Assembly (NCBI GenBank): GCA_028874985.1
Contig: JAPPGI010000174.1
Span: 1-50,483, forward strand
Direction of reading: 5' to 3'
From: Gemmatimonadota bacterium
GTDB lineage: Bacteria > Gemmatimonadota > Gemmatimonadetes > Longimicrobiales > Gaopeijiaceae
Length of the DNA: 50,483 bases
The position numbers were made by a program, and so were the translations under genes. The notes beneath the pieces are model-generated. The model had not been told where the DNA came from and searched no databases. It saw only the letters and a program-made list of their open reading frames with translations. This document shows positions 2,379 to 34,646 of this stretch, in pieces (the stretch's first letter is position 1; each line of letters opens with the position of its first letter).

Positions 2379-2894
2379 ATCGCAGAAAAACGCGTCCGGG
2401 TGAACGAACAGATCCGGATCAGTCCGATCCGGCTGATTGCGGAGGGCGGGGGACAGATCGGGATCGTTTCGCTGGACGAGGCGCGCGCCCGGGCCGCCGA
2501 GATGGGACTCGACCTGGTCGAGGTGGCTCCCGACTCGAGGCCGCCCGTGGTCCGCATGATGGACTACGGGAAGTACAAGTACAAGGCGGCGCGCGCCGCC
2601 CGGGAGGCCAGGAGGAAGCAGCACACCACCCAGATCAAGGAGGTGAAGTTCCGGCCGGGAATCGAGGACCACGACTACGAGTTCAAGCTGCGCCACGCGC
2701 GGCGCTTTCTCGCGGAGGGCAACAAGGTGAAACTCACCATGATGTTCCGTGGACGGCAGATCACCCACCCCGAGCTGGGACGGCAGGTACTGCTGCGTCT
2801 CACCGAGGACCTCGGCGAGTACGGGAAGATCGAGCAGTACCCGAACTTCGAGGGCCGCCAGATGTCCATGATCCTGACTCCCATCAAGAACTGA
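2379..2894 (+). CDS. infC: Translation initiation factor IF-3, ATC start
   Basis: IF3 binds the 30S subunit and enforces correct start-codon and initiator tRNA selection. The product is 171 residues with the N-domain ([14 protein letters not shown]), a basic linker and the C-domain ([19 protein letters not shown]), close to the usual 170-180. The frame stays open upstream to a GTG at 2280, but that start would add 33 unrelated residues and would begin inside the terminator-like hairpin. The better start is ATC at 2379: AAGGAG at 2364-2369 lies 9 bases ahead and the family N-terminus begins right there. Non-canonical AUU/AUC/AUA starts are a known property of infC and allow IF3 to repress its own translation. 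Followed by rpmI after 91 bases. Confidence 0.95.
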
Positions 2895-2985
2895 CCGGCG
2901 AGGCGGACCGTCACGGAGCCCTCGCGCTCCGGGTACCCCGGCCATCCCTCCGCTCAGCCAAACACGGAATCGCAGGGAGGAACCC

Positions 2986-3183
2986 ATGCCCAAGATGAAG
3001 TCGAACCGGGGCGCCGCGAAGCGCTTCCGGACAACCGGAACCGGAAAGCTCAGGAGGATGCGGGCCAGCAAGTCTCACATCCTGACCAAGAAGAACCGGA
3101 AGCGGAAGCGTCGGCTGCGTTCGTCGACATCGGCTGCCAAGGCCGATGTGGCGCGCGTGCGGCGGATGCTGCCGGGAACATAG
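2986..3183 (+). CDS. rpmI: 50S ribosomal protein L35
   Basis: Small, very basic ribosomal protein of the large subunit, 65 residues as usual. It begins [14 protein letters not shown] and contains the family pattern of Lys/Arg-rich stretches around [21 protein letters not shown] ribosome binding site stands just upstream (AGGGAGGAACCC then ATG). It lies between infC and rplT, the standard arrangement, and is probably transcribed with them; rplT starts 28 bases after its stop. Confidence 0.97.
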
Positions 3184-3211
3184 AAGCCAGGGAAACGAGG
3201 AGAGGAGACCG

Positions 3212-3571
3212 ATGCCGCGCTCGACCCGCGCCGTCGCACGCAACAAGCGCAAGAAGAAGGTCCTCAGGGCCGCAAAAGGGTATTTCGGGGGACGAAAGAA
3301 CCTCTACCGCACGGCCAAGGACGCCGTGGAAAAGGGCTGGGAGCACGCCTACCGCGACCGGAGGAAGAAGAAACGCAACTTCCGCCGGCTGTGGATCACC
3401 CGGATCAACGCCGCCGCCCGGCAGAACGACCTTTCCTACTCCCGCTTCATGAACGGGCTCCGGCGCGCCGGGGTCGAACTCGACCGCAAGGCGCTGGCCG
3501 ACCTGGCGATTCGCAGCCCGGAAGCCTTTTCGTCGCTTGCGGACCGGGCGAAGTCGGCGCTGAAGAACTAG
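3212..3571 (+). CDS. rplT: 50S ribosomal protein L20
   Basis: Large-subunit protein that binds 23S rRNA early in assembly; in several bacteria it also represses its own operon. 119 residues, normal length, beginning [18 protein letters not shown] with the conserved [15 protein letters not shown] and the globular C-terminal half ([20 protein letters not shown]). The start ATG at 3212 follows an AGGAGA site; a longer open frame upstream overlaps rpmI and does not match the family. No L20-binding pseudoknot could be recognised by eye in the leader. Confidence 0.97.
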
Positions 3572-3618
3572 CGGCGCACCGGCTGGGGAAGACGTACGGG
3601 GTCGGCGGGGGTGCATCC

Positions 3619-4629
3619 GTGATCGAAGACCTCCGGAGGCTCGAGCGGGAGGCACTCGCGGCGATTGCCGCCGCGGCGGGTCTCGATGAGCTCGAGCAGG
3701 TTCGCGTCCGTTACCTGGGCCGCAGGGAGGGGCGGATCTCGGCGGTGCTGCGACGACTGGGGCGGCTGAGTCCCGAGGAGCGACCGGCGGTGGGCGCCGC
3801 CGCGAACCGTGCTAAGACCGCCGTGGCCGAAGCGCTGAAGAACCGCCTTGCGGAGCTGGAAGCCGTGGCGGCTCCGGACCGCGACGGTGTGGATCTCACC
3901 CTTCCCGCACGGGGCAGGTGGCGCGGGACGATCCACCCCGTCAGCCGGGTGATCGACGACATCTGGGCGATCTTCCGCAGCCTGGGCTTCACGCGCGCCC
4001 GGGGGCCCGAGGTCGACACCGAGTGGTACAACTTCGTCGCCCTCAACACGCCGCTGGACCACCCCGCCGCCGACGAGCAGGACACCCTGTACCTCGGCCC
4101 CGGCCTCCTGCTTCGCAGCCACACCTCGCCGGTGCAGATCCGCACGATGGAGCAGTACCCGCCGCCGATCCGGATCATCGCGCCGGGAATGGTCTATCGC
4201 CGCGACACCTACGACGCGACCCACACGCCCGCCTTCGCGCAGATCGAGGGGCTGGTGGTGGACGAGGGCGTCACCTTCGTGGACCTCAAGGCCACGCTGG
4301 CCGAGTTCGCGCGGCGCTTCTGGGGGCCCGGGACCCGGGTCCGCTTCCGACCGTCGTTCTTCCCGTTCACGGAGCCGTCGGCCGAGGTGGATGTGAAGCG
4401 CGTGATCGTGCGCGAGGACGGCGCGGATGAGGAGACCGACTGGATCGAGATCATGGGTGCGGGGATGGTCGACCCGGCCGTGCTGGACAACGTGGGCTAC
4501 GACTCCGAGCGCTACACCGGGTGGGCCTTCGGGATGGGACCGGCCCGGGTGGCGCTGCTGCGCCACGGGGTGCGCGATCTCCGGCTCTTCTACGAGAACG
4601 ACATGCGCTTCCTGGGGCAGTTCAGGTGA
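3619..4629 (+). CDS. pheS: Phenylalanyl-tRNA synthetase alpha subunit
   Basis: Catalytic subunit of the alpha2-beta2 enzyme that charges tRNA-Phe. 336 residues from GTG 3619 (MIEDLRRLEREALAAI), compared with 327 in E. coli; the frame is open further up into rplT but only this start gives the family N-terminus, a coiled-coil arm of about 85 residues. Class II motif 2 (FRPSFFPFTEPSAEVDV) and motif 3 (GMGPARVALL) are intact, and the C-terminus DMRFLGQFR is typical. The stop overlaps the GTG of pheT by four bases (GTGA), so the two subunits are probably translationally coupled. Confidence 0.97.
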   Translation: MIEDLRRLEREALAAIAAAAGLDELEQVRVRYLGRREGRISAVLRRLGRLSPEERPAVGAAANRAKTAVAEALKNRLAELEAVAAPDRDGVDLTLPARGRWRGTIHPVSRVIDDIWAIFRSLGFTRARGPEVDTEWYNFVALNTPLDHPAADEQDTLYLGPGLLLRSHTSPVQIRTMEQYPPPIRIIAPGMVYRRDTYDATHTPAFAQIEGLVVDEGVTFVDLKATLAEFARRFWGPGTRVRFRPSFFPFTEPSAEVDVKRVIVREDGADEETDWIEIMGAGMVDPAVLDNVGYDSERYTGWAFGMGPARVALLRHGVRDLRLFYENDMRFLGQFR

Positions 4630-7034
4630 AGGTCTCCTACCGCTGGGTCCGCGACGTGGCCCCCGGCATCGGACTTACGGCCACCGGGGCGATTGAGCGG
4701 CTGGCGCGGCGCGGCGCGCCGGTGGAGGAGGTCGTCGACCTGGCGGAGGGCCTGGGGGACGTGGTCATCGGGCGGGTCCTGGAGGCGAGGCCGCACCCGA
4801 ACGCCGACCGCTTGACGCTTTGCCGGGTGGTCGGGCCCGGGGGCGAGGTGCCGGTGGTCTGCGGAGCTCCGGATGTCCGAGAGGGTGCTTGCTACCCCTT
4901 CGCGCCGGTGGGCGCGGTGCTCCCCGGCGGCTTCACGATCGGAAGACGGAAGATCCGGGGCGAGTACAGCGAGGGCATGTTGTGCTCCGAGCGCGAGCTG
5001 GGGCTGGGGGAGGACCACGCCGGGATCATGCTGCTCGAAGGACGGTACGAGCCGGGCGACCCGTTCGCGATGGCGGTCGGCCTGGACGACCTCCGTTTCG
5101 ATGTCGAGGTGACGCCCAACCGGGGGGACCTGCTTTCACACGTGGGCATCGCGCGGGAGCTTCACCCCGAGGGGCAGGGGGGAATCGTTCTCCCGTCGTT
5201 GCCGGGAATGACTTCGGAACCGGCGCTCTCCTTTGCGCGGGGCTCCTCGGAGAGCGGTTCGGACGGATGTCGGATTATGATCGAGGATCCGGCGCTCTGC
5301 TCCCGGTACCTCGGTGTGGTCGTCCGCGGTGTCACCGTCGGGTCGTCCCCGCGCTGGCTCGCCGACCGGCTGCGGGCCGCGGGAGCGCGGCCCGTCAACA
5401 ACGTTGTGGACGCCACCAACTACGTCATGCTGGAATTGGGACAGCCGCTCCACGCCTTCGACCTGGCGAGGCTGGCCGGCGGCACGATAGTGGTCGGCCG
5501 TGCCCGGCCCGGGGAATCGCTCGTCACGCTCGACGGCGAGGAGCGCCCGCTCACGCCCGAAATGCTGATGATCCGGGACGCGAAGCGGCCCGTGGCGGTG
5601 GCCGGGGTGATGGGGGGCGGGGACTCCGAGGTGTCAGAGCGGACGGTGGACATCCTGCTCGAGTGTGCCCTCTTCGAACCTCGCCGGGTGCGGGCGACGC
5701 GGCGTGCGCTGGGCATGTCCACCGACGCGAGCTACAGGTTCGAGCGCGGGGTGGACCCGGCCACGATGGAGACTGCGGTGACGCGGGCGGCCTCGCTGAT
5801 CCTGGCTGTCGCCGGCGGGGCGCCGGCGGGAGAGGTCATCGATGTTCACCCGGCGCCGTGGAGGGCTCCCACGGTGACGCTCCGGCCATCTCGCGTGCGG
5901 CACGTCCTGGGGGTGGACTTCACGCCGCACGCGATCGCCGGGCTGCTGTCGCCGCTCGGCTACGAGGTGGTGGAGCGGGGGCGCGACGCACTCGAGGTCG
6001 TGGTGCCCGGCCACCGCAGCTACGACACCCTGCGCGAGGTCGACCTCATCGAGGAGGTGGCCCGCACGCACGGCTACGACGCCTTCCCCGAGACCATGTC
6101 CCCCTGGCGGCCCGGAACCGTTCCGGACCATCCCCTCTTCCGGCTCGAGGATGCGCTCAGGGCCGAGCTGGCGGCCGACGGGATCAGCGAGGCGCAGACC
6201 CCGGCGATGGGGCCCGCCCGGCACGGCGACGTGCCGCTGCGGAATCCCATGTCGCGCGACGAGAGCCACCTGCGGCGCGACCTCCTCCCGGGGCTGCTCA
6301 AGCATGTGGAACGGAACACGGCCCGGGGAGTGCGCGATGTGCGACTCTTCGAGATCGGAACCGCCTTCGCGCCGGTCGCGGGGGGGCCGCCGCACGAGTC
6401 GTCGCGGGTGGCGGCGGTGTTGACCGGGCGGCGGACACCGCCGCACTGGTCGGGTCGGGGTGAGCCGTTTGATGTCTACGACGTTTCCCGGGTGCTCGGG
6501 CTGGTCGCCGCGGAGGCGCATCCCGGGGCGCGCGTGGCGCCCGCCGGTACGGAGGCCGTGCCGCATCCGTACCTGCCGGGACGCTGCTACGAGCTGGTGA
6601 CCGGGGCGGGGAAGGTGGTGGGGTGGGGGGGGGAGGTGACTCCCTCGGCCGTGGACGTCCCCCCGTGGGTGGGCGCGGTCGTGGGTGCCGAGGTGGTGCT
6701 TCCCGAGGATCCCCGGCCGAAGCCCGGGGTAACCGCCCGAGACCTGCCGGATCAGCCCGCGTCGGAGCGGGATCTTGCGTTTCTGGTTCCGCCGGACGTT
6801 GCGGCCGGGGACGTTCTCGGCGCGGCCCGCAAGGGTGGCGGGAAGCTGCTGGAGGCGGTGGAGGTCTTCGATCTGTACCTGGGTGACGACCTGCCGTCCG
6901 GGATGCGTTCGCTGGCTCTGCGCTTGCGTTTTCGCGCCCGGGGGCGGACCCTGACGGACAGGGAGGTGGACGGGGCTTGTCGTCGGGTGCTCTGGAAAGT
7001 GAAGGAGAAGACCGGTGTCGAACCAAGGACCTGA
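4626..7034 (+). CDS. pheT: Phenylalanyl-tRNA synthetase beta subunit
   Basis: Beta subunit of PheRS, carrying editing and tRNA recognition. 802 residues from GTG 4626 (MKVSYRWVRDVAPG). Visible in order: N-terminal B1 part, OB-fold EMAP-like tRNA-binding domain (about 38-150, with HPNADRLTLCRVV), B3/B4 editing domain (about 210-380), B5 domain (about 400-475), a catalytic-like fold, and the FDX-ACB anticodon-binding domain at the C-terminus (from about 705, LPDQPASERDLAFLVPPD). Length and order match full-length PheT. The last 20 bases overlap the next small gene. Confidence 0.97.
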   Translation: MKVSYRWVRDVAPGIGLTATGAIERLARRGAPVEEVVDLAEGLGDVVIGRVLEARPHPNADRLTLCRVVGPGGEVPVVCGAPDVREGACYPFAPVGAVLPGGFTIGRRKIRGEYSEGMLCSERELGLGEDHAGIMLLEGRYEPGDPFAMAVGLDDLRFDVEVTPNRGDLLSHVGIARELHPEGQGGIVLPSLPGMTSEPALSFARGSSESGSDGCRIMIEDPALCSRYLGVVVRGVTVGSSPRWLADRLRAAGARPVNNVVDATNYVMLELGQPLHAFDLARLAGGTIVVGRARPGESLVTLDGEERPLTPEMLMIRDAKRPVAVAGVMGGGDSEVSERTVDILLECALFEPRRVRATRRALGMSTDASYRFERGVDPATMETAVTRAASLILAVAGGAPAGEVIDVHPAPWRAPTVTLRPSRVRHVLGVDFTPHAIAGLLSPLGYEVVERGRDALEVVVPGHRSYDTLREVDLIEEVARTHGYDAFPETMSPWRPGTVPDHPLFRLEDALRAELAADGISEAQTPAMGPARHGDVPLRNPMSRDESHLRRDLLPGLLKHVERNTARGVRDVRLFEIGTAFAPVAGGPPHESSRVAAVLTGRRTPPHWSGRGEPFDVYDVSRVLGLVAAEAHPGARVAPAGTEAVPHPYLPGRCYELVTGAGKVVGWGGEVTPSAVDVPPWVGAVVGAEVVLPEDPRPKPGVTARDLPDQPASERDLAFLVPPDVAAGDVLGAARKGGGKLLEAVEVFDLYLGDDLPSGMRSLALRLRFRARGRTLTDREVDGACRRVLWKVKEKTGVEPRT

Positions 7035-7829: not shown

Positions 7830-9422
7830 ATGGATCCGCTGGGTGCCATTCTCCCGGCGGTCGGTGCGGTTGTCGCCGCAATTCTGGCGTACCTGCTGGG
7901 GAGGGGCCGGGAGAGGGCCCGGCAGCTCAAAGAGAAGGAAGCGGCGAAAGACGAAGCCTCGCTGATCCGCAAACGGGCGGAGGAGGAGGCCGAAAACCTG
8001 CGCCGCACCGCCGAGTTGCAGGCCAAGGAGACGAGGTTCCGGCTCAGGGAGGCCTGGGAGCAGGAGGAGAGCCACCGCCGGGAGGAGATCGAGCGCGGCG
8101 AACGACGGTTGCTGCAGCGCTCCGAAGCCGCCGACCGCAAGTCCGACCAGCTCGACCGCCGCCAGGATGCGCTTGACGAACGCGCCCGCACGGTCGAGGA
8201 ACGTGCCCGTGCGGTGGAGGCCCGGGAGCGGGAGGCGGTGGAGCGGTCAAAGGACGTGGAGCGCGCTCGCGCCGAAGCGCATGCACGGCTGCAGACCATG
8301 GCCGGCCTTACCGCCGAGGAGGCGAAGACCCAGCTTGTCGCGGAGCTCCAGGACGAGGCCCGGGCCGAAGCCGCCAACCGGGTGAGGGAGATCCGGGAGG
8401 AGGCCCAGCGCACCGCCGACCGGGAGGCGAAGAAGCTGGTGGCCATGGCCATCCAGCGAATGGCGGCCGAGGAAGCCGCCCAGCTCACCGTCTCGGTCGT
8501 GCAACTGCCTTCGGACGAGATGAAGGGGCGAATCATCGGTCGGGAAGGGCGCAACATCCGCGCCTTCGAACAGGCCACCGGAATCGATGTCATAATCGAC
8601 GACACGCCCGAGGCGGTCGTCCTCTCGGGGTACAATCCGGTCCGCCGCGAGGTCGCCCGAGTCGCACTGGCGAAGCTGATCGAGGACGGGCGGATTCACC
8701 CGGGACGCATAGAGGAGACGGTGGCCAAGAGCGCTGCCGAGGTGGAGGTCGAGATGCGGGAGGCCGCGGAGGAGGTCCTCTACGGGCTCGGGATCCACAA
8801 CGTGCATCCCGAGATCGTCAAGGTGCTCGGATGCTTGAAGTTCCGCACCTCGTACGGTCAGAACCAGCTTGCCCACTCCAGGGAGGTGGCTCTGCTGGCC
8901 GGCAACATGGCCGCCGAGATGGGACTCGACGTGCAGATGGCCCGGCGGGCGGGACTTCTGCACGATGTGGGAAAGGGGCTCACCCACGAGCAGGAACTCA
9001 GCCATGTGGAGCTGGGATACCGCCTGTGCAAGCGCCACAAGGAGCCCGACCCGGTTCTCAACGCCATCCGCGCCCACCACGACGAGGAGCCGCACCGGTA
9101 CGCGGAAGCGTGGCTGGTGACCGCCGCCGACGCGATCAGCGGGGCCCGCCCGGGGGCACGCCGGGAAATGTTCGAGGGATACGTCAAGCGCCTCGAAAAG
9201 CTGGAGGGGATCGCTACGGAACACCCGGGGGTGGAGCGCTGCTTCGCCATACAGGCGGGGCGCGAGCTTCGGGTCATGGTGGAGCCGGAGCGGGTGTCCG
9301 ACGAAGACATGACCCGGATCTCCGAGGCGGTGGCCCGCAAGATCGAGGGCGAACTTCAGTATCCCGGTCAGATCAAGGTGGTCGTGATCAGGGAGACGCG
9401 GGCCATCGACTTTGCGCGCTAG
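7830..9422 (+). CDS. rny: Ribonuclease Y
   Basis: Membrane-anchored endoribonuclease that starts mRNA decay. 530 residues in the expected order: N-terminal membrane helix (about 5-24, ending LAYLLGRGRERAR), a long charged coiled coil (about 25-205), KH domain with GRIIGREGRNIR (about 230-290), HD phosphohydrolase domain with HSREVALLAG and the metal-binding LLHDVGKG (about 345-445), and a C-terminal domain ending GQIKVVVIRETRAIDFAR. GGAG stands 9 bases before the ATG. It lies between zapA and folD with its own candidate promoter. Confidence 0.97.
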   Translation: MDPLGAILPAVGAVVAAILAYLLGRGRERARQLKEKEAAKDEASLIRKRAEEEAENLRRTAELQAKETRFRLREAWEQEESHRREEIERGERRLLQRSEAADRKSDQLDRRQDALDERARTVEERARAVEAREREAVERSKDVERARAEAHARLQTMAGLTAEEAKTQLVAELQDEARAEAANRVREIREEAQRTADREAKKLVAMAIQRMAAEEAAQLTVSVVQLPSDEMKGRIIGREGRNIRAFEQATGIDVIIDDTPEAVVLSGYNPVRREVARVALAKLIEDGRIHPGRIEETVAKSAAEVEVEMREAAEEVLYGLGIHNVHPEIVKVLGCLKFRTSYGQNQLAHSREVALLAGNMAAEMGLDVQMARRAGLLHDVGKGLTHEQELSHVELGYRLCKRHKEPDPVLNAIRAHHDEEPHRYAEAWLVTAADAISGARPGARREMFEGYVKRLEKLEGIATEHPGVERCFAIQAGRELRVMVEPERVSDEDMTRISEAVARKIEGELQYPGQIKVVVIRETRAIDFAR

Positions 9423-9514
9423 CAGGCCTTGGATGAAACCGCCCAACTTCAACTCATGACGGGTCGGCAGTCAGCCTGACACCGGCATCAGCCCCAGCGG
9501 GGGACAGGAGATCC

Positions 9515-10405
9515 ATGTCCGCTAAGATCATCTCAGGAAAGGACATCGCCCGTACCATCCGGGACGAGCTGAACGAACGGGTCGCGGAGTTGGCGGAGCA
9601 AGGGCTGGTGCCCGGCCTCGCCACGGTGCTCGCGGGCGACGATCCGGCCAGCCGGCTCTATGTGGGGATGAAGAACCGGGCGGCCGCCGAGGCGGGGATA
9701 CACTCCCGCCAGGTCACCCTGCCCGGGTCGGCCGGCGAGACCGAACTGCTGGATCTGATCGCGGACCTGAACGCCGACCCGGCAATTCACGGCATCCTGG
9801 TCCAGTTGCCGCTGCCGCGGCAGATCGACGAGTCGAAGGTCCTCCTGGCCATCGACCCGGACAAGGACGTGGACGGCTTCCATCCCGTGAACGTGGGGCG
9901 CCTTGCCACCGGCGACCCCGATGTCCTCGCCCCCTGCACCCCGCGGGGCGTCATCGAGATGCTGCTCAGGAGCGGAGTCGATCCCTCCGGAAGACACGTG
10001 GTGGTGGTGGGCCGTTCGAACATCGTGGGCAAGCCGATGGCGCTGCTGCTTCTGCGCCGCGCCCCCGGCGGCAACGCGACCGTGAGCGTCGCGCACAGCC
10101 GCACGGCCGACCTGGGGGCGCTCACGCGCAGCGCCGATGTGCTCATCGTGGCGGTGGGACGTCCCAACACGATCACGAGGGAGATGGTCAAGCCCGGCGT
10201 GACCGTCATCGACGTGGGCACGAACCGCGTGGACGACCCGAGCCGGGAGCGGGGCTACCGGGTGGTGGGCGACGTCGACTTCGAGGGTGTGAGCGAGGTG
10301 GCCGCGGGGATCACGCCGGTGCCGGGAGGTGTCGGCCCCATGACCATCGCCATGCTGCTCGCCAACACCGTCGAAGCAGCGGTCAGACTGCGGAAGGAGG
10401 GTTAG
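9515..10405 (+). CDS. folD: Bifunctional methylene-THF dehydrogenase/cyclohydrolase
   Basis: FolD interconverts 5,10-methylene-THF and 10-formyl-THF using NADP, feeding purine and formyl-Met synthesis. 296 residues, normal. The catalytic Lys is in the YVGMKNRAA segment; [20 protein letters not shown], the nucleotide-binding [17 protein letters not shown] and [10 protein letters not shown] are all present. AGGAG lies 5 bases before the ATG. Two bases separate its stop from xseA, so the genes are probably co-transcribed. Confidence 0.97.
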
Positions 10406-30158: not shown

Positions 30159-30773
30159 CTACGGCGCACCACCTTCCACGCGCGCCTTGAGCCGCGTCAG
30201 GCTTTCCCTGAGCTGGCGCCCCTGGGACTCCTCCAGGTTGAGGGCGGTCCAGCCCAGCAGGGGATTCCACCCCAGGTCCGCCCGCTCGGTCCAGCTCACG
30301 AGCGAGCCTCGCGGATGCGGCTGGACGGCGATCGTGCCCTCGAAGCGGATGGCTCCGTCTTCCACCTCGACCAGGTAGTCGACTCCCGGATTGTCCCGGC
30401 CGGGGTCCGCAGGGGGTGGCCGTGATTCCACCAGGGTCAGTGAGCCCGACCCCAGCGCCGGGTCGTCCCACACGCGACGCGCTCCGGCTCCCGCGGAGGG
30501 ACCCTCCAGGCGCGACTCCACTTCGCCCCAGGGCGTCCATTCCGTCCAGGTTGCCAGGTTGTCGAGAAGAGGGAAGACGGCCTCGGGCGGAGCCGAGATT
30601 TCCACCGTTCCGGTCACCTCGACGGTTGCCGGCAGCAGGATCCCCACCAGCACGAAGGTGCCGGCGAGCAGGGCCAGGAGCGCGGCGACAAGCGCACCGG
30701 GTTTCGCTACGGAACCGAACACGGCGGGACGGTGGACCCCCTGTCGTCGCCGACCCTGGCAGCCCACGTTCAT
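30159..30773 (-). CDS. SRPBCC-domain membrane-anchored protein
   Basis: 204 residues from ATG 30773. A single membrane helix at about 24-48 (KPGALVAALLALLAGTFVLVGILLP) is followed by an SRPBCC/polyketide-cyclase-like domain beginning VEVTGTVEISAPPEAVFPLLDNLATWTEWTPWG, with the typical SLVSWTERADLGWNPLLGW later. Such domains bind small hydrophobic ligands; the ligand here cannot be told. The ATG overlaps the stop of the upstream aminotransferase (ATGA), so the pair is translationally coupled. Confidence 0.8.
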   Translation of the reverse strand: MNVGCQGRRRQGVHRPAVFGSVAKPGALVAALLALLAGTFVLVGILLPATVEVTGTVEISAPPEAVFPLLDNLATWTEWTPWGEVESRLEGPSAGAGARRVWDDPALGSGSLTLVESRPPPADPGRDNPGVDYLVEVEDGAIRFEGTIAVQPHPRGSLVSWTERADLGWNPLLGWTALNLEESQGRQLRESLTRLKARVEGGAP

Positions 30774-31930
30774 CCGAAGAACCGGCCCAGGCGCTCCACC
30801 GCGCGTTCCAGTGTCGCGGCCCGCTTGCAGAAGGCGAAACGAACCAGCTTCCGGCCGTCTTCGGGCCTGCTGTAGAAGGACGAGCCGGGCACCGCGGCCA
30901 CGCCGCACTCCCGCGCCAGGAAGGTGCTGAAGGCCACGTCGTCGAGGGTGCTGAGAGCGGAGAAGTCGGCCATCACGTAGTAGGCGCCTTCGGGTGGACG
31001 GCACCGGAAGCCGGATTCGCGGAGTCCACGGTGGAGAATGTCCCGCCGCCGGGTGTAGTCGGCGGCGAGACCGTCGTAGTATTCGCGTCGCAGTGACGAG
31101 ATCCCGGCCGCACACGCCTCCTGGAGGGGGGCGGGGGCGCCGACGGTCAGGAAGTCGTGGACCTTGCGGATCGCCGAGTTCAGGGAGTGCGGCGCGACGA
31201 TCGTGCCGATCCGCCAGCCGGTCACGCTGAAACTCTTGGACAGCCCCGAAATGATTACGGTGCGCTCCCGCATCCCGGGAAGCGTGGCGAGCGGGATGTG
31301 CTCGCCCTCGAAGATGATGTGTTCGTAGATTTCGTCCGTGATTGCGAGAAGGTCGTGGTGCCTGCAGATCTCGGCGAGCGCCATCATCTCGGCCCGGTCG
31401 AAGACGCGCCCCGAGGGGTTGTTGGGGGTGTTGACCACGATGGCCCGCGTGCGTTCGGTGACCGCACTTCGCAGGCGCTCGGGGTCGAGGCGGAAGTCCG
31501 GGAGCGAGAGGGGCACGAAGACCGGAGACGCGGCACAGAGCACCGCGTCCGGACCGTAGTTCTCGTAGAAGGGCTCGAGAACGACGACCTCCTCGCCCGG
31601 GTCGACGGCCGCGAGCATCACGGCCGCCATGGCCTCGGTCGCCCCGCAGGTGACCGTGATCTCCCGGTCCGCATCGACGTCGAGCCCATACCACTCGGCG
31701 TACTTGGCCGCCAGCGCCGCGCGCAGGCCGGGAGTGCCCCAGGTGATCGCGTACTGGTTGACGTCGTCGCGGATGGCCCGGCAGGCGGCGTCCTTGAGAA
31801 GCTGTGGGGCGGGGAAGTCGGGGAATCCCTGGGCGAGGTTGATCGCGCCGTGGCGCTCCGCCACCCGGGTCATGTCTCGAATGACCGATTCGGTAAATGT
31901 ATGGGTTCGTGCGGCCGTACGCTGGCTCAT
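30770..31930 (-). CDS. Class I PLP-dependent aminotransferase
   Basis: 386 residues from ATG 31930 (MSQRTAARTHTFTESVIR). Fold type I aminotransferase: AINLAQGFPDFPAP (about 30) is characteristic of the kynurenine/methionine aminotransferase-like group (YbdL, KAT), VNTPNNPSGRVF and DEIYEHIIFEGEH are the cofactor-binding segments, and the PLP lysine is in SGLSKSFSVTGWRIG (about 228). Substrate cannot be fixed from sequence; methionine, glutamine or kynurenine are the family choices. The ribosome binding site is weak. The gene is divergent from the winged-helix protein, and the two start codons are only 100 bases apart. Confidence 0.9.
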   Translation of the reverse strand: MSQRTAARTHTFTESVIRDMTRVAERHGAINLAQGFPDFPAPQLLKDAACRAIRDDVNQYAITWGTPGLRAALAAKYAEWYGLDVDADREITVTCGATEAMAAVMLAAVDPGEEVVVLEPFYENYGPDAVLCAASPVFVPLSLPDFRLDPERLRSAVTERTRAIVVNTPNNPSGRVFDRAEMMALAEICRHHDLLAITDEIYEHIIFEGEHIPLATLPGMRERTVIISGLSKSFSVTGWRIGTIVAPHSLNSAIRKVHDFLTVGAPAPLQEACAAGISSLRREYYDGLAADYTRRRDILHRGLRESGFRCRPPEGAYYVMADFSALSTLDDVAFSTFLARECGVAAVPGSSFYSRPEDGRKLVRFAFCKRAATLERAVERLGRFFG

Positions 31931-31966: not shown

Positions 31967-31996
31967 TTGACGGCCTCTCTCTTCATCTCTTATGTT
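31967..31996 (+). promoter_or_regulatory. Sigma-70-type promoter of the winged-helix gene
   Basis: TTGACG (31967-31972), 18-base spacer, TATGTT (31991-31996); transcription should start near 32003, leaving a leader of about 28 bases. One of the best promoter matches in the window. Confidence 0.6.
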
Positions 31997-32030: not shown

Positions 32031-33536
32031 ATGACCCAATCGACCGACCCCCGCTATCATGACGCGATGGAGCGCCTTCTCGGCTGCGCGGTCCTCTTCC
32101 ACGGTGCCGAAAACCTGGCTGACCTCGCAGAAATCGATTTCGGAACACTTCTGGAGCAGAGTGGTCTGGGAATGTCCGCTTCTGACCTGGAGTTCATCGA
32201 CGCGGCCGAGGCCCTGCGCTCGGAGATACAGATAGGGAAAGAGTTTGCGGGTGTTCTTGAGCGCATGGACAGGCGTTCCCGAACGATCGCCGCCAAGCGC
32301 ACCTATGCCCATGTCCCCCAGAAGCTGGCGGTTCTCGGGGACGAGTTCGGGGTGAGCCGGGAGCGTGCGCGCCAGTTGGAAGTCCGGCTTCGCTGGGTGG
32401 TCGAGGAGGCTGCGTCCGGAGCCGTGCAACGGGCCGCCGACTGGCTCGTGCGGGCGGTCGGGGCGGCAGCCACACCGGCGAGATTCCAGAGAATCCTGGA
32501 CTTGCTTGTGGACGATGCTCCGCCGGAGTGGAGGAGCGCGGCCGAGGTTGCGGTCATGAAGCAGGGCGGGTACGAATACCTTGACGGGGTTGTGGCGAAC
32601 GGGGTGTTCCGAGGTTTGGTGGAGGAGGCGCGGCGGCTTGCTCCGCGGTTCGCCAACGAGGCGGGCGTGATCGACGAAAAGGGACTTCGCCGGGAGATCG
32701 GCGCGGACGGAATATCCGAGTGGGAGGCCCTGGCGCGGAACGCCCGGCTGGTGCGGGTGGGTGGCAGCCTTGTGCTCCGGGACACGCGGCGCGTCCGCGT
32801 TTTCCTGGCCCTGAGCGACATCGGCGAGCCGTCCACAAGGGATGTGATTGCGGACTTGGCCGGGCTCACCGACAACTCGTCGCTTTCCAGCCTCCTTTCA
32901 TCCGATCCTCTCTTCGTCCGGTTCACCAAGGACAAGTGGGGTCTGAGGGACTGGACGGACGAGCCCTACGAAGGGGTGGTCGAGGCGATCATGCGACGAA
33001 TCGCGAAAGCCGGTGGCGTCGTCAGCGTCCAGTCGCTGGTCGAGGAGATCCCGGACCGGTTCGAGGTTCTCCCCGCCACCGTGCGCAACTACCTGGGCAC
33101 GAGAAAATTCGCGGTCGACGGGGATTTCGTACGGGTCGTCGCCGCACCTGTCGCGCCACCCAGGAATCTCGCCGATGCCAGGGATGTGGTATGGTCGCGG
33201 GACGGCACGCCTGCTCTTCACTTCGAGGCGGGTGTGCATCACCTGAAGGGCAACAGCCAGAAGGTGTCGGTCGCGGTCGCACAGCACCTCGGCGTCGGCC
33301 TCGACGGCTCGATAAAGATCCCGTTCGAGCACCCCCGGGGGGTGGATGACGCATCCGTGATCTGGCGGTCCTACGACCCGAACGGACCGGAGATCGGCCG
33401 CCTGCGGGAGGCCCTCCTGGAGTCTGGTGTGCAACCCGGCGAAGAGGTGTTCGTCGTGCTCAGACGCGAAGGTCTGCGGCTCCTCACCGACGCCTCGCAA
33501 TTCGTGAACAGGAAACCGGCACCTGCCGAAGACTGA
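32031..33536 (+). CDS. Sigma-region-4-like / winged-helix DNA-binding protein, function unknown
   Basis: 501 residues from ATG 32031; TTG 31992 is possible but would lie on the predicted -10. N-terminal helical region (1-90), then a segment matching sigma-70 region 4 (about 92-121: KLAVLGDEFGVSRERARQLEV), where VSRERARQLE is the recognition-helix signature. A helical middle follows, then two HARE/winged-helix-like units: about 253-311 (STRDVIADLAGL to KWGLRDW) and about 313-370 (VVSVQSLVEEIPDRF, TVRNYLGTRKFAV). The C-terminal domain (about 385-495, with GNSQKVSVAVAQHLGVGLDG) is unfamiliar. No regions 2 or 3 of sigma, no catalytic motif, no export signal. It stands alone with its own promoter. 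Could be a regulator that touches RNA polymerase or the DNA-recognition part of a system whose partners lie elsewhere; both are guesses. Confidence 0.8.
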   Translation: MTQSTDPRYHDAMERLLGCAVLFHGAENLADLAEIDFGTLLEQSGLGMSASDLEFIDAAEALRSEIQIGKEFAGVLERMDRRSRTIAAKRTYAHVPQKLAVLGDEFGVSRERARQLEVRLRWVVEEAASGAVQRAADWLVRAVGAAATPARFQRILDLLVDDAPPEWRSAAEVAVMKQGGYEYLDGVVANGVFRGLVEEARRLAPRFANEAGVIDEKGLRREIGADGISEWEALARNARLVRVGGSLVLRDTRRVRVFLALSDIGEPSTRDVIADLAGLTDNSSLSSLLSSDPLFVRFTKDKWGLRDWTDEPYEGVVEAIMRRIAKAGGVVSVQSLVEEIPDRFEVLPATVRNYLGTRKFAVDGDFVRVVAAPVAPPRNLADARDVVWSRDGTPALHFEAGVHHLKGNSQKVSVAVAQHLGVGLDGSIKIPFEHPRGVDDASVIWRSYDPNGPEIGRLREALLESGVQPGEEVFVVLRREGLRLLTDASQFVNRKPAPAED

Positions 33537-33539
33537 TCG

Positions 33540-34646
33540 CTATCGGACTCGTGGCTCGCCCCCTGCGCCTTCGCGGTTCCGGTTGACGAGCACGACCCCC
33601 CAGGTGAGAACGGGCAGCACGAAGACCGCCAGGTATCCGTAGGTGATGTAGCCGTAGCCCCTGGCGACCAGAGGGATGAGCCCGAACCGGGCCATGACCG
33701 CGCCGAGCCCCAACATCGCCAGCGCCGCCCCCACCCGGATGGCGACGGGAAGTTCCCGGTCCCGTGCCCGGCGGCTGCGGGCGATGCGCTCGTTCACCGC
33801 GTGCAGGAGGCCGGCCCCGGTCTCGGCCAGCGTGCCGAAAAGCACCACCTGGAACGCGACCTGGAAGCCGCGGGATCCAAGCATCTCCAACATATGATTA
33901 ACCGGTATCGATTCTGTCAATATCTGCGGATATTCACCCGCGATCGCGACAAGGAAGAGCAGTGCCGGAACCATCGCGATGGGCCCGGTCAGGAGTCCCG
34001 CGATGAAGGTGTCCCTGCGGCTGCGGTGGTGGCGGATGGTGATGAGGACGGCGGGGAGCGCGCCCAGGTTGTACCCCGCATACTGCAGTCCACCCAGGAT
34101 CCAGTTCCCCCGGATGCCGCCGCCGGCCAGAGAGGCCTCGATGGCCGGGCCGAAGCTGCGAACGCATAGGACGAAGAAAACGATGTACACGAGGTAGAGG
34201 ACGGCCGACCAGGCGGTGAAGGCCCTCTCGATCACCCGGTTGCCGCCGAAGACGAGGAAACCGACCAGCACGAGAATCCCGACGACGCCGGCCAGGTAGG
34301 GGAGCCCGAAGGCCCTCTCTGCAATCGACCCGGCGGCGGCGGCGATCACGGCGAGGACGATCATCATGAGGGCGACGTACAGCACCTCGAAGGCCACCCA
34401 CCACGGACCTAGCAATCTCTGAAAGAAGCTGCGGTACTCGAACGCCCGGAACACGCGCGCGAATTCATAGCTGACGATGCATACGGCGCTCCAGACGGCG
34501 GTGGCCAGGGCCATGGCCAACAGTCCCCCGAGGGGTCCGCGCGAGAGAAAGAACTCGGCCAGCTCCCGTCCGGTGCCGTATCCGCCGGCGATTACCACCG
34601 ACTGGAAGACGAAGCCCGGAAGAAGGTAGCGGCGCAGGGCGTTCAT
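33540..34646 (-). CDS. YkvI-like integral membrane protein
   Basis: 368 residues with about 10 hydrophobic segments spread over the whole length, related to the YkvI family and more distantly to amino-acid transporters. The N-terminus LRRYLLPGFVFQSVVIAGGYGTGRELAEFF is diagnostic of the family. Four-base overlap (ATGA) with the dehydratase upstream indicates coupling. A role in moving serine, threonine or their products is suggested by that partner only; no direct evidence exists in the sequence. Confidence 0.85.
   Translation of the reverse strand: MNALRRYLLPGFVFQSVVIAGGYGTGRELAEFFLSRGPLGGLLAMALATAVWSAVCIVSYEFARVFRAFEYRSFFQRLLGPWWVAFEVLYVALMMIVLAVIAAAAGSIAERAFGLPYLAGVVGILVLVGFLVFGGNRVIERAFTAWSAVLYLVYIVFFVLCVRSFGPAIEASLAGGGIRGNWILGGLQYAGYNLGALPAVLITIRHHRSRRDTFIAGLLTGPIAMVPALLFLVAIAGEYPQILTESIPVNHMLEMLGSRGFQVAFQVVLFGTLAETGAGLLHAVNERIARSRRARDRELPVAIRVGAALAMLGLGAVMARFGLIPLVARGYGYITYGYLAVFVLPVLTWGVVLVNRNREGAGGEPRVR

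Follow-up and report, generated by a model that had tools for sequence, protein, structure and literature searches.

A chromosomal Gemmatimonadota protein with a sigma region 4, and its larger homologues in Ssp and Pbe defence operons

Sigma-70 factors contact the -35 box through residues of the RERxRQ type and require region 2 to open the -10 element, and the HARE domain occurs in the delta subunit of RNA polymerase. A protein class that joins an alpha-CTD, a sigma region 4 and a HARE domain was reportedly named and described in the 2012 HARE-HTH paper of Aravind and Iyer (Cell Cycle 11:119). As for the Pbe systems, the searched passages of PMC10853773 mention HARE-HTH as a fusion to a nuclease and sigma for a DndH variant, and describe PbeB as a small protein, while those of PMC6459918 contain neither 'sigma' nor 'helix-turn-helix'. 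A link between Pbe and a component bearing region 4 is not mentioned in the passages of either paper, and may stand in the 2012 HARE-HTH paper, the 2020 ABC-ATPase survey or the supplements.

The window analysed here, a stretch of 50,483 nucleotides from a Gemmatimonadota bacterium, encodes such a region 4 in a 501-aa protein, P0001 (coding positions 32031-33533, then the stop codon; Table 1). As the original prediction had noted, the genes around it are metabolic and unrelated to it, and none of PbeA-D lies beside it. No PADLOC model matches P0001 or its larger homologue, PHROGs gave no match for P0001, and no relatives were found in the viral contigs and phage records searched.

Table 1. Coordinates in the window of the P0001 gene, its parts and its neighbours
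Feature	Position	Strand	Basis
Aminotransferase-like gene, divergent	30770..31930	-	ATG 100 bp from P0001 start; syntenic neighbour
Sigma-70-type promoter TTGACG-N18-TATGTT	31967..31996	+	Pattern scan; consensus match only
P0001 gene (501-aa region-4 / winged-helix protein)	32031..33536	+	Open frame, genus-wide presence, synteny, omega
Sigma-70 region 4, residues about 57-128	32199..32414	+	Pfam, NCBIfam and family-profile matches
VSRERARQLE recognition helix, residues 108-117	32352-32381	+	Sequence position
Possible winged helix 0, residues about 191-250	32601..32780	+	AlphaFold2 helices and hairpin, pLDDT about 72-86; no profile confirmation
Candidate HARE-like winged helix, residues about 253-310	32787..32960	+	PF05066, RNAP delta alignment
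Second winged helix, residues about 312-371	32964..33143	+	Structure and profile match
C-terminal domain, possible AbrB/B3-like barrel, residues about 380-486	33168..33488	+	Weak profile/structure rows
Membrane transporter, convergent	33540..34646	-	Downstream neighbour of P0001

Domains of P0001

The original prediction started from the sequence VSRERARQLE, a hallmark of sigma-70 region 4, and this identification holds. A profile built from 17 family sequences aligns over the entire region 4 with PDB sigma chains (E 1e-14 to 1e-9), the NCBIfam RpoH model TIGR02392 aligns to residues 64-119 of P0001 (E 4e-7), and Pfam Sigma70_r4, sub-threshold for P0001 alone (E 0.0058), passes its own cut-off in most family members scanned. 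Within the recognition helix E111, R112, R114 and Q115, whose counterparts in sigma-70 touch the -35 box, are invariant in an alignment of 20 sequences, in which the DNA-contacting positions of the helix-turn-helix also belong to the best conserved. Judged by its sequence, the region 4 of P0001 is real. The same residues might suggest a divergent or degenerate sigma factor that is able to initiate transcription, but regions 2 and 3, absent also by the original prediction, have no match among the Pfam and NCBIfam profiles in P0001 or among those of Pfam in the relatives scanned, and region 2 is what opening of the -10 element needs. A true sigma factor was accordingly rejected, and we regard it as scarcely credible.

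Beyond region 4 the assignments are less firm. The AlphaFold2 model of the whole protein, for which the input was three sequences (the window and two relatives' loci), suggests winged helices at about residues 191-250, 253-310 and 312-371 with an overall pLDDT of 58.5 and a pTM of 0.33, the better stretches being residues about 191-280 and 321-340, and Foldseek found no match to this model below E 0.1. Two HARE-like winged helices had been predicted, and one of them survives, weakly. PF05066 aligns to residues 282-308 (32874-32954) at E 0.6 (12.9 bits against a cut-off of 25.9), and to relatives of P0001 at E 0.06-0.19 (12.6-14.2 bits, again below the Pfam cut-off); the RNA polymerase delta chain 8x6g_E also aligns over this middle winged helix, weakly, at E 1.4. 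The matches are suggestive of a HARE-like fold for it, below the Pfam cut-off. Across the whole genome, at E up to 1, PF05066 finds two places, P0001 and an ORF of 265 aa on contig 188 (L102 78-875, minus strand), in which HARE-HTH passes the Pfam cut-off and the part behind it resembles, on visual inspection, an Mrr-type endonuclease domain. The other predicted HARE, at residues 312-371, is a generic winged helix, matching the Zalpha domain 9j89_D (Z 8.3, rmsd 2.5, 59 residues) and the MCM winged helix 2ma3 (E 0.016).

The original prediction could put no name to the C-terminal domain, and it stays unfamiliar: the signals are faintly AbrB/B3-like, with no firm match. A MazE/AbrB profile weakly touches the domain in two members, over its first half in L014 (E 0.005) and over its second in L032 (E 0.07). 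Modelled alone, the domain reached a pLDDT of 66.7, and the top structure rows for this model were plant B3 domains, themselves weak (1yel, Z 3.5; 8oj1, Z 3.0); Foldseek found nothing with it, and a scan of the genome with PF02362 (B3) gave no match. The domain may be an internally doubled AbrB/B3-like barrel. Of the separate profile searches that the original prediction had proposed, the one with region 4 matched sigma chains and the one with the C-terminal domain gave no notable match in the PDB.

Larger homologues and their operons

P0001 had been called an orphan, which it is not, as its family spans several phyla. Searches with P0001 and with a larger homologue found Gemmatimonadota members mostly of about 520-780 aa and about 30% identity, and tblastn added members on Actinobacterial plasmids. 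Residues 10-481 of P0001 align with L032 and L017 at about 30% identity, so the homology reaches beyond the helix-turn-helix. In the larger homologues a helix-hairpin-helix unit resembling the RNA polymerase alpha-CTD precedes region 4, the winged helices and the C-terminal domain. This unit passes the Pfam cut-off in L064 (25.8 bits against 23.8) and in a more distant member, L110 (41.2 bits), in both of which region 4 does so as well, and falls somewhat below it in L018, L061, L107 and L112; P0001, which in the alignment begins after this part, has no match to PF03118. Two cases deserve separate mention. Nonomuraea gerenzanensis (L059) has two related members at 3731-6001 and 7875-9719, one of them apparently without an intact region 4, and on a 17.5-kb Microbacterium plasmid (L061 578-10093) a member lies amid UvrD-like, exonuclease, DUF4011 and DEAD helicase genes, possibly a further defence cluster.

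An alpha-CTD-like domain in the larger relatives is one of the reasons to consider that P0001 is a polymerase-associated factor, whose region 4 would dock on the beta-flap of RNA polymerase in place of, or next to, that of sigma, the winged helices steering the enzyme as in sigma-appropriating factors. The profile match over the whole of region 4, and not the helix-turn-helix alone, is consistent with such docking, as are the occurrence of HARE in RNA polymerase delta and the weak 8x6g_E alignment. Against it stands the good conservation of the residues for DNA contact, and we consider the polymerase-associated reading doubtful.

In the Gemmatimonadota larger homologues are encoded in defence operons. 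PADLOC reads the genes of L051 as SspA, SspB, SspC, SspD, the homologue (for which it has no model), PbeA and PbeC, and the small last gene, which has no match, is taken as PbeD from its position and size. By tblastn and ORF lists, and within the limits of their contigs, L050, L053, L054 and L100 repeat this order, SspD and PbeA flanking the homologue. L056 has an HKD helicase along with genes resembling SspD, SspA, PbeC and PbeD, and the homologue comes after them on the opposite strand. A PbeA profile search of 395 genomes of the phylum gave eight high-scoring matches, and a family member is present at six of these loci (G045 twice, G088, G093, G213 and G366). The seventh, in G211 (L058), has a 439-aa region-4 protein together with methylase-like, PbeC- and PbeD-like genes, and no region-4 family member was found at the eighth, on contig 36 of G335. 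The original prediction had hinted that such a protein might be tied to restriction and modified DNA, and this is borne out by homologues in phosphorothioation/Pbe operons, P0001 itself having no defence neighbours.

A region-4 protein is absent from three of four SspABCD loci that have no Pbe genes (L096-L098), L099 (SspABCD without PbeA or PbeC) carries a divergent one of 794 aa at 2681-5062 on the plus strand, and the 17-kb contig L055, which gave no match to PbeA or PbeC, combines SspABCD with a family form that has no region 4. After the SspD-Pbe genes of L053 (5809-7555, in G088) there are a DndB-like gene and a 161-aa protein of unknown type, both of which recur in L097.

PbeA also matched 24 plasmid records, of which 12, picked by hand, were examined, and because of that choice the figures for them are counts and not rates. 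By the family profile a region-4 protein adjoins PbeA on plasmids of Pontibrevibacter, Ruegeria and Arthrobacter, and in Aurantiacibacter it ends the Pbe operon, which makes four plasmids from Alphaproteobacteria and Arthrobacter; RefSeq names those of Pontibrevibacter, Ruegeria and Aurantiacibacter 'sigma factor-like helix-turn-helix DNA-binding protein'. Among the 12 records none was found at the Pbe loci of Sphingomonadaceae, Rhizobium, Chlorohelix (a locus interrupted by a transposase), Leuconostoc and Pseudanabaena, or at those of three haloarchaea. The region-4 component of Pbe loci is common in bacteria and, as it is missing from these five other bacterial and three archaeal loci, not universal.

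Conservation in the genus and descent

Within the genus, each of the 23 genomes sampled has the P0001 gene, at 60-84% identity (one match ends at a contig end), and so do two further genera of the same bacterial family. In most of 19 retrieved regions, some of whose contigs end early, it adjoins the same aminotransferase gene. That flank also holds SRPBCC and Rho genes, and the opposite one transporter, dehydratase and TonB-receptor genes; the exceptions are L045, without an aminotransferase match, and L046, without the far-side genes. Omega (Nei-Gojobori) is 0.10-0.23, and the gene is under purifying selection. The promoter of its own that had been predicted was found, and boxes of the form TTGACG-N17/18-TATGTT are kept upstream of the closer orthologues; farther out in the family, many shuffled sequences give boxes as good as the best ones found. 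An MFS transporter gene (roughly 400 aa) follows P0001 in most relatives, ahead of the convergent transporter, is absent at 33536-33540 of the window and seems to remain as a fragment in L040; because it is missing here and in some relatives, it was dropped as a candidate partner.

This distribution bears on the idea that P0001 is a defence component acting in trans, sensing the state of DNA for unlinked restriction genes such as the HARE and Mrr-like ORF on contig 188. That ORF and the defence context of the family both fit. Against it, P0001 occurs throughout the genus in a shared gene order and by vertical inheritance, whereas Ssp and Pbe genes are sporadic (SspD in 7 of 23 genomes; PbeA in 7, four of them high-scoring), and at the thresholds used neither SspD nor PbeA has a match in P0001's own genome. 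We think a role in trans distinctly unlikely.

In the family tree, which is midpoint-rooted and whose root is not fixed, the window clade, made up of forms without an alpha-CTD and without defence genes alongside, is supported at 100/100 and has as its neighbour the Ssp-linked clade with a lone form, L030, both lying in one 100/100 group. Since L018, L019 and L064, which are also Pbe-linked, fall outside this group with Actinobacterial members, a Pbe-linked ancestor would be the shorter story on the midpoint root. The direction of descent is not thereby proved, given the unfixed root and the lone members elsewhere, and a stand-alone ancestor is possible, as members on mycobacterial plasmids and in Nonomuraea, L052 and L101 likewise stand alone. 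The best reading is that the P0001 lineage descended from, or is sister to, a defence component.

Proposed role and relation to known systems

Because its relatives sit in sulfur-marking phage-defence operons, P0001 looks like a defence part turned ordinary regulator. We put at about even the chances that it is a chromosomal DNA-binding regulator, the stand-alone and vertically inherited member of a family whose larger forms belong to SspABCD/Dnd-PbeACD-type operons, and that it came from a Pbe-linked ancestor, presumably losing the alpha-CTD and the partner genes on the way. Its region 4, with the RERxRQ residues kept, would read -35-like DNA, the winged helices and C-terminal domain would hold the DNA that flanks it, and the protein may act as a transcription regulator or DNA-bound factor of the chromosome and not as a sigma factor. 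As a reader of TTGAC-like boxes it would be expected to control a regulon. The interpretation first offered, a DNA-binding protein or a polymerase-associated factor, is in keeping with the domains; to call it of an undescribed type was too strong, the class having reportedly been named by Aravind and Iyer in 2012.

One can speculate further that the bacterial Pbe component is a promoter mimic, in which the alpha-CTD and region 4 would read an UP element and a -35 box without RNA polymerase, check promoters for modification and act on unmarked ones, P0001 then being a domesticated promoter-reading regulator. Archaeal promoters are not known to have a -35 box, and the speculation would for that reason fit the lack of the component at all three of the archaeal Pbe loci studied here; we hold it to be quite improbable all the same. 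Should the proposals made here hold, a component so far unlisted and made of pieces of the transcription machinery would belong to bacterial phosphorothioation/Pbe defence, and the genus is a case of a defence part fixed as a chromosomal gene. They would also give a handle on Pbe self/non-self discrimination, which the passages of PMC6459918 and PMC10853773 leave open.

Set beside known proteins, P0001 has in common with RpoH and SigA a complete region 4, including its RERxRQ recognition helix, but regions 2 and 3 were not found in it. Like the alpha-CTD/sigma-like HARE-HTH proteins it joins a region 4 and a winged helix that is a HARE-like candidate in one chain; it differs from them in having no alpha-CTD, which its larger relatives do have, and in the sub-threshold support for its HARE. 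The RefSeq proteins near PbeA also carry region 4 (family profile, E about 1e-12). They are of 1017-1026 aa or 437 aa, compared with 501 aa, have an alpha-CTD-like helix-hairpin-helix before region 4 that P0001 lacks, are unmatched by the family's domain profiles in their other parts and, unlike P0001, are linked to PbeA. With respect to the PbeABCD and CxC ABC-ATPase systems (PMC6459918, PMC10853773), it is the larger homologues that are encoded in such operons, whereas P0001 stands without PbeA-D alongside.
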